This document shows, piece after piece, positions 9,145 through 49,242 of a stretch of DNA of 64,000 nt. The notes under the pieces are model-generated. The model saw nothing but the letters and a program-made list of their open reading frames with translations, did not search any database and had not been told where the DNA came from. The stretch comes from Mycetohabitans rhizoxinica HKI 454 (lineage in GTDB: Bacteria; Pseudomonadota; Gammaproteobacteria; Burkholderiales; Burkholderiaceae). How positions within the stretch are numbered: position 1 is the stretch's first letter; each line of letters starts with the position of its first letter. Location of the stretch: NCBI RefSeq assembly GCF_000198775.1, contig NC_014722.1:209765-273764 (forward strand). Reading direction: 5' to 3'. The translations under genes and the position numbers were made by a program.

Positions 9145-9801
9145 TGCGTGCTCTCCTTACGAAAAATCGCCCTGCGCCTCGTTAAAGGCGCTGCGTGTGG
9201 GCAACGCGGAAAAAATCGGCGAATCGGGCCGCCGGCGTGCCGCAGTCGCGGTCAGCCCGACGGATCGCGACATCGCGATCGGAAGTTTCATTATCGAGGC
9301 GAGAGCGAGGAATTCGAGCAATTTTTCAAACCCTTAATATTGTTACAGCACGAAACATCGGCATAACATTGCATTCCGATTTGCACCGCGCTCGTGTAGG
9401 AAATTTGTACGTTGTCACCATGACGGACCGATGCCCCGCTACTTCGACCTAGGCAGGCCGTTTTTCTATGGGCGGCATGTGGCGGTGCACCCGCACGGTC
9501 ACCGGTCTTACTGCTTGCCGTTACCGGCTATCGGCACGTTTCGTCATATGGGCGGTTGGACGGCCAGCAGTTCGGCTTGTTGCGGGGGCGGCGGCATCAT
9601 CTGCCGTGACGCGCGTGCGGGGCAAATTTCGGGCTTTGACTTTTTACGCTGTCTCACCCAATGCGTTGCCTCGTATCCGCTTCCTGTTCGTCAGGCCAGC
9701 GCTTTGCCGGGCGCACGAAAAAAACCAGAACGGCAAAGCCGCTCCGGTGATTTCCTCAATAGAGAGGCAAGGATGGCGACGATTTGCCGCGGGCCGGTGT
9801 G
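9145..9801. other. Long non-coding gap with an 8-bp-arm palindrome
   Basis: About 650 bp without a credible gene. The strongest feature is the inverted repeat GATCGCGA-CA-TCGCGATC at 9263-9280, about 120 bp before the glycosyltransferase start, which could be an operator for that gene. An AT-richer patch follows at 9310-9370. The rest resembles degraded coding DNA that I cannot identify. Confidence 0.4.
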
Positions 9802-32777: not shown

Positions 32778-33781
32778 CCGACGCCCCGGACACGGCATCG
32801 CGGATCAGGGTGTCGGTGGTCGTGCCAACCTATCGACGTCCTGATCTGCTGTCACGGTGCTTGGACGCGCTGTGTGCACAGGTGTTCGATCCGAGCACCT
32901 TCGAAATACTTGTGGTCGATGACGACCGCGCGCGTCACAGCGCGAAAGACGTGGTTCACGCGTTCGCGCAACGCAGTGACGGCAGGCCACGCGTGCGCTA
33001 TATTCCGGCCTGGCGCACCCGCGGCCCGGCGGGTGCGCGTAACGCGGGCTGGTGCAGCGCACAAGGCGCGATTATCGCGTTTACCGACGACGATACGATT
33101 GCGGACCCGATGTGGCTACGGCAAGGGTGTGATGCGTTGATGCGCGATCCGATGGCCTGCGCGGTTGCGGGACGCATCGAAGTGCCGCTTGGCGATGCGC
33201 CGACCGATTACGAGCGCGATGCCAGCGGCTTGGCGCATGCCGAATTCGCGACAGCAAACTGCTTCGTGCGCCGCGACGCGCTCGTGCAAGTGGGCGGATT
33301 CGACGAGCGCTTCACTCGCGCTTGGCGTGAGGACGCTGACCTGATGTTCATGCTGCGCGAGCAGGTCGGGCCCATTATCGACGCACCGCAGGCTCGGGTC
33401 CTGCATCCGATACGCCCAGCCCATTGGGGCGTAAGCATTGGCCAGCAGTCCAAAGTGTTCTTCGATGCGTTGCTCTATAAGAAGCATCGACGCGTGTACC
33501 GCCAGCATATCCGTCGGGTGCCACCCTGGCATTACTACATCGCCGTGGCGGCGTTGCTCTTGGCTGCGGTATTGCTTGGCACCGGGCAGCGTGTCGCGGG
33601 CAGCGTGGCGCTGGGTATCTGGGCGGCGGTGACCCTCTGGTTTTGCTGGCGGCGGTTGCGCGGCACCTCACGCGCGGCCTCCCATATTGCCGAAATGATC
33701 GTCACGTCAATGGCAATCCCGCCGGTATCGCTGTATTGGCGGCTGCGCGGCGCGCTTCACTTCAAGGTGCTTTTTCTATGA
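32774..33781 (+). CDS. Glycosyltransferase family 2, membrane-anchored
   Basis: 335 aa. A GT-A catalytic domain covers residues 10-240: VVVPTYRRPDLL, VVDDD, RGPAGARNAGW, the DxD FTDDDT and the acceptor-site WREDADL. Two C-terminal transmembrane helices follow (AVAALLLAAVLLG and VALGIWAAVTLW), so it acts at the cytoplasmic face of the inner membrane. The ATGA overlap with the carbamoyltransferase and the 4-bp overlap with the next GT9 show one operon. Confidence 0.88.
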   Translation: MTDAPDTASRIRVSVVVPTYRRPDLLSRCLDALCAQVFDPSTFEILVVDDDRARHSAKDVVHAFAQRSDGRPRVRYIPAWRTRGPAGARNAGWCSAQGAIIAFTDDDTIADPMWLRQGCDALMRDPMACAVAGRIEVPLGDAPTDYERDASGLAHAEFATANCFVRRDALVQVGGFDERFTRAWREDADLMFMLREQVGPIIDAPQARVLHPIRPAHWGVSIGQQSKVFFDALLYKKHRRVYRQHIRRVPPWHYYIAVAALLLAAVLLGTGQRVAGSVALGIWAAVTLWFCWRRLRGTSRAASHIAEMIVTSMAIPPVSLYWRLRGALHFKVLFL

Positions 33782-47432: not shown

Positions 47433-48087
47433 ATGTCGATTCGCATAGGCGACGAAGCACCCGATTTCACCGCCGACACCACGGAAGGTCAAATTCGTTT
47501 CCACGAATGGATCGGCGACCATTGGGCGATTCTGTTCTCGCACCCGAAGGACTTCACACCGGTGTGCACGACCGAGCTGGGCTACGTCGCGCGGCTTAAA
47601 ACCCGAATTCGACAAGCGCAACACGAAGGTGATTGGCTTGTCGATCGATCCGGTCAGTGACCACAAGCGTTGGGTGGGGGACATCGCCGAGACACAAGGC
47701 TATCCGATCAACTATCCATTGATCGGCGATGAAAACTTAAGCGTCGCGAAGTTGTACGACATGATTCACCCCAATGCGAGCGCTGGACCACGCAATGCGA
47801 ACGACAACGCGACCGTGCGCGCGGTGTTCATCATCGGTCCAGACAAGAAAATCAAGGCCACGTTCACTTATCCAATGAGTGCGGGACGTAACTTTGACGA
47901 AATACTGCGCTTGCTCGATGCATTGCAACTGAACGCGAAGCATTCCGTGGCGACGCCGGTGAACTGGAAGCCGGGCGACGATGTGATCATCCCGACGTCG
48001 GTATCCGATGAAGAAGCGAAGAAAAAGTATCCGGAAGGCTTTAAGATGCTCAAGCCGTACCTGCGTACCGTCGCGCAGCCGAAATAA
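47433..48087 (+). pseudogene. 1-Cys peroxiredoxin (Prx6 type), interrupted by a frameshift
   Basis: GGAGG precedes ATG 47433 ([17 protein letters not shown]). The peroxidatic Cys motif is [11 protein letters not shown]. After YVARLK the frame is lost at a four-A run (47598-47601); removing one A restores [18 protein letters not shown] and the full C-terminal half, for about 217 aa in all. As read, the first fragment ends at 47660 and the second has no ribosome site. The enzyme would reduce hydrogen and alkyl peroxides. The indel in an A-run may be real or a sequencing error. Confidence 0.85.
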
Positions 48088-48137: not shown

Positions 48138-48167
48138 TTGCGTTTTTGGAGGATCAGGGTTTATACT
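48138..48167 (+). promoter_or_regulatory. Promoter of small RNA copy 1
   Basis: -35 TTGCGT (48138-48143), 18-bp spacer, -10 TATACT (48162-48167). It points to a start at about 48173, directly at the conserved CCGTCTCC end of the duplicated element. Confidence 0.55.
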
Positions 48168-48172
48168 TAAAT

Positions 48173-48232
48173 CCGTCTCCTCCATGTCTCCTCCGATATG
48201 GATTCAGCCCGCCGTATTGGCGGGCTTTTTTT
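48173..48232 (+). ncRNA. Candidate 60-nt small RNA, copy 1, with anti-Shine-Dalgarno loop
   Basis: The element runs from CCGTCTCC to an intrinsic terminator (AGCCCGCC 48206-48213, GGCGGGCT 48219-48226, seven T). A first hairpin pairs TCCAT (48181-48185) with ATGGA (48198-48202) and exposes CTCCTCC (48188-48194) in its loop. A second CTCCTCC lies at 48177-48183. CUCCUCC is complementary to the Shine-Dalgarno sequence. A near-identical copy lies at 49118-49176; between the copies only the terminator loop and two other bases differ. This also terminates the peroxiredoxin transcript. Confidence 0.6.
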
Positions 48233-48268
48233 CGCCTGCGTATTATCCGACCCTAATAAAAGAACGCT

Positions 48269-48916
48269 GTGACGCTCCATACGTGGTGGTTTTTTGTTGC
48301 AACTGTGTTCATTGTATCGGCCATTCCGGGCCCGAACATGCTGTTGATGATGTCCAGCGGCGCGCGGTATGGCTTACGCCGAAGCAGTTGGGCGATGGCC
48401 GGCTGCCTGTCGGCGCTGGTGCTGATGTTGTCCGTCTCGGCCGCCGGACTGGGGGTATTCCTGCAAGCTTGGCCGGCGATGTTCAACGCATTGCGCGTGG
48501 CAGGCGCTGCTTACCTGATGTACCTGGGCATCAAGGCGTGGCGCGCGCCGGTGGAGTCGGCGTCGCACGGTGCGGCCGATACGCGACCGGTCGAGCGTGA
48601 TGCGGCGCATCGTGTCACGCGCTTTGCGATGTTTCGCACAGGCTTTCTGGTGGGCGCGAGCAATCCGAAGGCCCTACTTTTCGCTGCCGCACTGCTGCCA
48701 CAGTTCATTAACGCCGCTGCGCCGACGTGGCCGCAATTCAGCATGCTGGTGCCGACGTTCGCGCTCATCGAGGTCGGTTGGTACATGGTCTATGCCGGAT
48801 GCGGCTCGCGGATTGGAGAACGCCTTCGCAGCCGTAGCATGGCGAAGGCGTTCAATCGGCTCACCGGCGGCGCATTCGTCGGCTTTGGCGCGCTGATGGT
48901 GCTGGTGCGGCACTAA
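48269..48916 (+). CDS. LysE/RhtB-family exporter
   Basis: 215 aa from a GTG start, six predicted membrane helices. The family signature is IPGPNMLLMMSSGARYGLRRS, followed by GAAYLMYLGIKAW and the mid-protein FRTGFLVGASNPKALLFAAALLPQF. Members export amino acids or similar small molecules across the inner membrane. It lies between the two small RNA copies. Confidence 0.88.
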   Translation: MTLHTWWFFVATVFIVSAIPGPNMLLMMSSGARYGLRRSSWAMAGCLSALVLMLSVSAAGLGVFLQAWPAMFNALRVAGAAYLMYLGIKAWRAPVESASHGAADTRPVERDAAHRVTRFAMFRTGFLVGASNPKALLFAAALLPQFINAAAPTWPQFSMLVPTFALIEVGWYMVYAGCGSRIGERLRSRSMAKAFNRLTGGAFVGFGALMVLVRH

Positions 48917-49084
48917 ACGCGCTCGCTTCCTTGCGGTCGAGACGTGCATACCGGGTGCCGGGAATTGGCAATGCATGAGACGTCGTGAACGCGTCGGCGC
49001 TTAGAAAGGAAGGGATCGGCGCGGCGTAGGAAAGTTGTATCGTTGCAACACGACGCAGGAAACCTGGTTACAGGCAGAAATTTG

Positions 49085-49113
49085 TTGCAACGCACCAAAT
49101 AACTTGCTAGGGT
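49085..49113 (+). promoter_or_regulatory. Promoter of small RNA copy 2
   Basis: -35 TTGCAA (49085-49090), 17-bp spacer, -10 TAGGGT (49108-49113), ending 4 bp before the conserved CCGTCTCC. Weaker than the copy 1 promoter and different in sequence, although the RNA parts are nearly identical. Confidence 0.45.
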
Positions 49114-49117
49114 GGAG

Positions 49118-49176
49118 CCGTCTCCTCCATGTCTCCTCTGATATGGATTAAGCCCGCCAAACGGCGGGCTTTTTTT
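49118..49176 (+). ncRNA. Candidate 59-nt small RNA, copy 2
   Basis: Same architecture as copy 1: CCGTCTCCTCC lead, TCCAT/ATGGA hairpin whose loop reads CTCCTCT, then a terminator (AGCCCGCC 49151-49158, AAAC loop, GGCGGGCT 49163-49170, seven T). It lies between lysE and the convergent argC. The sequence outside the RNA is not shared between copies. Confidence 0.6.
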
Positions 49177-49242
49177 CCTCTTGCATTACGGCGGCAGCGA
49201 AAGCCGCTGCGCTGAGAATGTGCGTTACCGCTGCCCGCAACG

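Follow-up and report, generated by a model that had tools for sequence, protein, structure and literature searches.

Two small RNA genes of the RF02278 family flank a lysE-type exporter gene in Mycetohabitans rhizoxinica HKI 454, and one of them, copy 2, is preceded by a sequence predicted to be a PhaR operator. The RNA family is known; what is new here is the predicted operator on copy 2 and its absence from copy 1. We consider it probable that the two RNAs form a pair that blocks ribosome-binding sites (RBSs), in which copy 2 would be repressed by PhaR and released by PHB, with copy 1 as its PhaR-free sibling. The genes lie within the window, a stretch of 64,000 nucleotides analyzed here (contig NC_014722.1, positions 209,765 to 273,764 of the forward strand). 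In window coordinates, the parts of the locus are:

48138..48143, plus strand: -35-like TTGCGT of copy 1, read from the sequence, with an 18-nt spacer to the -10
48162..48167, plus strand: -10 TATACT of copy 1, read from the sequence
48174..48233, plus strand: sRNA copy 1 (RF02278, prx-lysE side), 67.8 bits, with no PhaR-type operator upstream
48269..48916, plus strand: LysE-type exporter, between both sRNA genes (PF01810, E 2.2e-33)
49082..49098, unstranded: predicted PhaR operator TTGTTGCAACGCACCAA, a palindrome over the copy-2 -35 and spacer, 17/17 to YTKNTGCRNYGCANMAR
49085..49090, plus strand: -35 TTGCAA of copy 2, within the predicted operator, from alignment to homologues, with a 17-nt spacer
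49108..49113, plus strand: -10 TAGGGT of copy 2, from alignment to three same-genus orthologues
49119..49177, plus strand: sRNA copy 2 (RF02278, argC side, convergent with argC), 69.3 bits
49243..50190, minus strand: argC, N-acetyl-gamma-glutamyl-phosphate reductase (TIGR01851, 448.3 bits)

The genes follow one another in the order prx, copy 1, lysE, copy 2 and then the convergent argC. The 1-Cys peroxiredoxin gene prx (47433-48087), beside copy 1, is split over two frames that hold its N- and C-terminal pieces, and is either a pseudogene or the result of a sequencing error. The promoter of copy 1 is retained in all four large genomes of the genus. The -10 of copy 2 reads TAGGGT in the window, whereas its orthologues in the other three large genomes of the genus have TATAGT; with this weakened element, copy 2 may be expressed weakly in HKI 454.

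Both copies match the Rfam covariance model RF02278, "Betaproteobacteria toxic small RNA", over model positions 1-64 of 64, with E-values across the whole window of 1.6e-11 (copy 1) and 6.9e-12 (copy 2) and scores above the curated cut-off of 50 bits. The first-pass annotation of this DNA, which had proposed such a search, took the family, as far as it knew, to be undescribed for Burkholderiaceae. This view does not hold, as RF02278 RNAs are already known as transcripts of Burkholderia cenocepacia, and the match of both copies rules out an undescribed family. The anti-hemB RNA model (RF02837) was also rejected, with scores of 26.7 and 22.5 bits under its cut-off of 49.5. Judged by these matches, the pair belongs to the known RF02278 family, the "double-hairpin RNAs" of B. 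cenocepacia, and is kin to Bordetella S17.

Transcripts of the family and their action have been shown in relatives by others. The RF02278 members of B. cenocepacia, which include ncS03, ncS05, ncS27, and ncS62, are expressed as transcripts of 57-92 nt and inhibit growth when cloned in E. coli (PMC4603805, PMC5688073). These double-hairpin RNAs carry CU stretches complementary to RBSs, 55-80% of their predicted interactions fall near gene starts, and overexpression of ncS27 slows growth (PMC4603805, PMC5688073, review PMC10987360). Four RF02278 RNAs are reported in Herbaspirillum seropedicae (PMC7011215). What governs the accumulation of double-hairpin RNAs is given as unknown in the 2017 study, whose Supplementary Fig. 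S3 concerns an upstream motif shared by three of the four homologues (PMC5688073). S17 of Bordetella pertussis has a conserved 27-nt 5' region common to Betaproteobacteria and RF02278 RNAs; it directly represses BP2158, as established with compensatory mutations, depends on Hfq, and does not impair the exponential growth of E. coli when overexpressed (PMC11722255). S17 is likened to the window copies by its published description. Its short form, S17S, arises by RNase E cleavage of a 190-nt precursor, whereas in copies 1 and 2 promoter-like sequences immediately precede the short form.

Both loci of the pair are genes for folded, terminated RNAs with a predicted length of about 59 nt. Copy 1 folds at -27.1 kcal/mol (z -6.0) and copy 2 at -28.7 kcal/mol (z -8.1), a stability equaled by none of 200 shuffles of either RNA. 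In each, a CU-rich loop caps the first hairpin and a terminator hairpin follows, in agreement with the first-pass annotation. Direct reading bears out the further claim that the copies differ in the terminator loop and, beyond the terminator, at two bases (C/T within the first loop, C/A just ahead of the terminator), and comparison of their promoters and flanks found these to be unrelated, as had been stated. Each copy was also said to have its own -35 and -10; promoter-like sequences are indeed present, but the -10 of copy 2 is better read by homology as given above. The CU-rich motif described for the first loop is there too, but it occurs a second time at the 5' end (GUCUCCUCC), and this second occurrence is the invariant one. 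As a whole, the earlier interpretation is partly supported, its central idea, that two sibling sRNAs could mask ribosome sites, being backed by family membership and the published work on the family. The predicted PhaR operator and the difference in control between the siblings had escaped it.

Constraint was assessed in an alignment of 38 over-cut-off copies including paralogues, of which 16 come from the genus and 22 from seven further genomes. Positions 2-11 (GUCUCCUCCA) are invariant in 38 of 38 copies, and 94.7% of cells in the two stems are paired. Both sides of a pair have changed in 67 cells versus 20.0 in shuffles, none of 500 of which reached as high a count. The terminator stem varies with compensatory changes, and terminator loops drift. 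Copies can be typed as ATG or ACC by the DNA bases directly after GTCTCCTCC; between the two types, U-A and G-U pairs of the first stem are swapped for C-G pairs. A mobile terminator with no conserved loop, the outcome named beforehand as fatal to the sRNA reading, is at odds with the ten invariant 5' bases and with compensatory variation in the terminator. The invariant 5' bases are those that pairing with RBSs would require.

Pairing with ribosome sites was computed as well. For 43 such sites, drawn from the window plus 200 kb of genome sequence, energies of -15 kcal/mol or better were reached at 14, compared with ten of the shuffled sites and four of the gene-internal stretches (43 each). 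Mean pairing was -13.7, versus -9.6 to -14.0 for 20 scrambled sRNAs, two of which did equally well. Duplexes with the starts of lysE, argC, prx, phaP, phaR, and phaZ had energies between -4.5 and -16.1 kcal/mol with none standing out; the phaP and phaR windows were roughly placed, and these two values are set aside. The idea that the sRNA reverse complement (GGAGGAGACAUG) mirrors an extension of the genome's Shine-Dalgarno sequence was discarded, ACA following GGAG in 1 of 29 contexts near the 43 starts.

The suggestion of PhaR came from a listing of upstream sequences, in which TTGCRNYGCANCA precedes most ATG-type copies, and predates the comparison with published PhaR sites. Recognition of this kind of motif by PhaR has been demonstrated in relatives. 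The palindrome of Ralstonia eutropha PhaR is YTKNTGCRNYGCANMAR, in which conservation is almost perfect at positions 1-4 and at position 7, counted from the center (PMC12849132, 2025). In Herbaspirillum, TG[N]TGC[N]3GCAA forms part of the PhbF footprint (PMC3206438). The promoter of copy 2 agrees with the Ralstonia consensus without a mismatch, and the best operator match in the 70 nt upstream of copy 1 carries four. Perfect sites number six in the 3.75-Mb genome. Three are apparently non-coding and precede copy 2, phaP (phasin), and phaZ (PHB depolymerase); the other three are coding and lie in a glycosyltransferase-like gene, at the end of hemH, and in a RelA/SpoT-type gene. The site before phaZ (TIGR01849, 592.9 bits) is about 117 nt upstream (L165:1501-1517), and phaZ is likely a member of the PhaR regulon. 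The site in the glycosyltransferase-like gene falls within the window (33049-33065) and is probably due to chance. With up to one mismatch allowed, 70 sites per strand are found versus 41 for the reversed pattern, and single weak sites therefore carry little meaning. PhaR itself is encoded in this genome (TIGR01848, 153.2 bits, contig C2:1259455-1259775). On sequence grounds, copy 2 would be counted in the predicted PhaR regulon by virtue of its predicted operator and the phaR gene, and copy 1 would be left out for want of the operator.

The predicted operator is conserved beyond the window genome. Upstream sequences were compared for 47 copies from 12 genomes: 17 matches come from the genus, and seven further genomes contributed 30 of their 32. 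Within 70 nt upstream, the exact palindrome is present in 19 of the 28 copies of ATG type and absent from nine; it is present in two of the 13 copies of ACC type and in none of the six remaining ones. All these copies are related and do not represent independent events. Eighteen of the 19 palindromes begin 35-38 nt before the RNA. Shuffles of the 28 ATG-type upstream sequences gave a mean of 0.21 and a maximum of 2 (500 shuffles), and equal-size tiles elsewhere in the same loci contained the palindrome in 40 of 1092 cases. In 13 ATG-type copies that share one register, a count that includes L028 and leaves out the ACC-type L062 in the same register, the two bases at a distance of seven from the center (-37 and -23) read T and A without exception (13 of 13). 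Among ACC-type copies, an operator-like match with up to two mismatches is present within 70 nt in 3 of 13. Two of this type, L053 and L051, show an operator-like sequence near -70 with one and two mismatches, respectively, a region that could hold the promoter of a longer transcript.

Across the family, the palindrome precedes the sRNA core with nearly constant spacing in 60 of 120 genomes (93 matches, 10 of 25 genera), versus 0 for the reversed-pattern control. The matches span 49 (68 matches), 48 (16), or 46 (9) bases, with 41-68 allowed. PhaR was found in 103 of the 120 genomes, that is, in 59 of 60 with the operator and 44 of 60 without it under the strict pattern; the lone operator genome in which the search found no PhaR (G057) is 83% complete. 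A Fisher test of operator against PhaR (59/1/44/16) gives p 1e-4, ignores kinship, and was given no weight. Because 44 genomes have PhaR and no strict-pattern operator, the link is confined to 10 of the 25 genera. A slightly longer pattern, applied to 399 genomes of the order, was found in 4 of 13 from this family and 0 of 386 others. As for the other genes of the regulon, phasin gave 14 matches in 11 genomes, with the palindrome at most 400 nt upstream of each genome's best match (twice in 10 of 11) and absent upstream of the three weaker matches. The phaR genes have it upstream in 4 of 11 cases, all of them from Mycetohabitans.

Other readings of the palindrome can be weighed against these results. 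The same sRNAs might be controlled through it by a different regulator, such as an NtrC-like or LacI-type protein, and TGCACC does resemble half of an NtrC site. A review passage places mmgR under both NtrC and AniA. We nevertheless regard a different regulator as unlikely, given that copy 2 agrees with the full 17-mer of Ralstonia PhaR and that the same palindrome stands before phaP and phaZ in the window genome. Still less credible is a motif that is merely the conserved -35 and spacer of a strong promoter, bound by no regulator. Half of the palindrome does coincide with the -35 (TTGC), but the five motif positions within the spacer (-28, -27, -26, -24, and -23) average 1.6 bits versus 0.5 for -22 to -14, and the exact palindrome is missing from copy 1 and from 11 of the 13 ACC-type copies. 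It is highly improbable that the elements are transposable terminators or attenuators of upstream genes rather than independent sRNAs. The strong terminators, one just downstream of prx and the other facing argC in convergent orientation, would suit such a role, but not the promoter-like sequences that each copy has of its own, the invariant 5' end, or the discrete transcripts of relatives.

The window genome (three contigs) holds four RF02278 copies, all above the cut-off. Among eight Mycetohabitans genomes, each of the four large ones has four copies; of the four reduced ones (1.1-1.2 Mb), three give no match and one has a degraded copy of 35 bits. This degraded copy (L008:1501-1557, in a 1.2-Mb genome) lies beside a broken argC and has an altered promoter of the copy-1 type. 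The four reduced genomes also yielded no PhaR or phasin match, which genome reduction alone could explain. In the family sample, RF02278 is matched in 107 of 120 genomes and above the cut-off in 104, versus 0 of 14 control genomes.

The arrangement of the pair is peculiar to the genus in this material. The two genes lie 0.95-1.11 kb apart with lysE between them in all four large Mycetohabitans genomes, and no over-cut-off pair within 2 kb occurs among the 32 matches of seven other genomes; in G015, an over-cut-off copy lies 1.9 kb from a weak match of 39.9 bits. The double-hairpin RNAs of B. cenocepacia are reported as non-tandem, unlike the copies in the window, which stand 0.95 kb apart around lysE, one with a predicted operator. 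Among three LysE loci in named genomes, identity to the LysE of the window is 94% in Mycetohabitans endofungorum HKI456 and 90% in Mycetohabitans sp. B8. Of 30 argC loci listed, ten have the sRNA core within 1.5 kb, convergent in eight, two of these eight from Mycetohabitans. Eight genomes, of which G017 is already counted among the ten, have a convergent copy at a distance of 2.9-4.4 kb from argC. The core is within 1.5 kb in only two of 30 prx loci listed, both from Mycetohabitans. Because linkage to argC is also found in other genera and linkage to prx, among the loci listed, in Mycetohabitans only, copy 2 seems to be the older, argC-linked gene and copy 1 a later addition.

For Mycetohabitans, we infer the following mechanism. 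Both RNAs would act in trans, with the invariant 5' GUCUCCUCC and the CU-rich first loop pairing to the Shine-Dalgarno regions of numerous mRNAs. The targets, by analogy with ncS27 and S17, would be mRNAs of transport and carbon metabolism, whose translation would be lowered, and Hfq probably assists these sRNAs. Bound to the palindrome over the -35 and spacer, PhaR would repress copy 2. In published work, PHA synthesis draws PhaR away to the granule, and this relieves phaP1 (PMC12849132). Formation of PHB granules would likewise sequester PhaR and release copy 2 along with phaP and phaZ, and carbon-storage status would, through copy 2, damp uptake and growth functions. Copy 1, which has its own promoter and was seen in the Mycetohabitans lineage only, would provide the same RNA without PhaR control.

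In glucose medium, ncS03, ncS05, and ncS27 of B. cenocepacia rise 8.0, 6.9, and 4.3 fold, and ncS62 is absent from the same table (PMC5688073). This rise fits what would be expected from derepression by stored carbon, and fits other explanations too. It is reasonably likely that in Burkholderia-type bacteria growth-damping, RBS-blocking sRNAs belong to the PhaR regulon, such that stored polymer would lead to translational repression of uptake and catabolism, and that the Mycetohabitans pair is split into a PhaR-controlled and a PhaR-free member. The predicted operator could account for the timing of sRNA production, and PhaR control could also account for the glucose rise of the three RNAs and the slow growth under ncS27 overexpression. 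A named candidate regulator, an operator, and a signal (PHB granules) make the accumulation question of the 2017 study testable. If true, this control would tie carbon storage to riboregulation in Burkholderiaceae.

The first-pass annotation likened the pair to CcsR-type RNAs, which carry C/U-rich anti-Shine-Dalgarno motifs in alphaproteobacteria. In search listings of the open-licence literature and in word look-ups in PMC5688073, PMC11722255, PMC9049629, and PMC8401924, no statement on PhaR control of RF02278 RNAs was found. Related circuits are described elsewhere. The PhaR/AniA regulon (Ralstonia phaP1, Herbaspirillum PhbF, and Sinorhizobium mmgR) shares a TGC-N3-GCA palindrome core, as at copy 2, and the Sinorhizobium sRNA gene mmgR is repressed by AniA (PhaR) at a dyad between the -35 and -10 (PMC8401924, PMC12542648). 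MmgR is a different RNA from RF02278, described for alphaproteobacteria, and its circuit parallels the one predicted for copy 2. The NmsRs of Neisseria meningitidis, likened to the pair by description only, form a tandem of homologous sRNAs whose CU-rich stretches are complementary to the RBS (PMC5688073). Elsewhere in the window, a group II intron domain (RF02001) is matched at 36.5 bits on the minus strand at 9591-9702.
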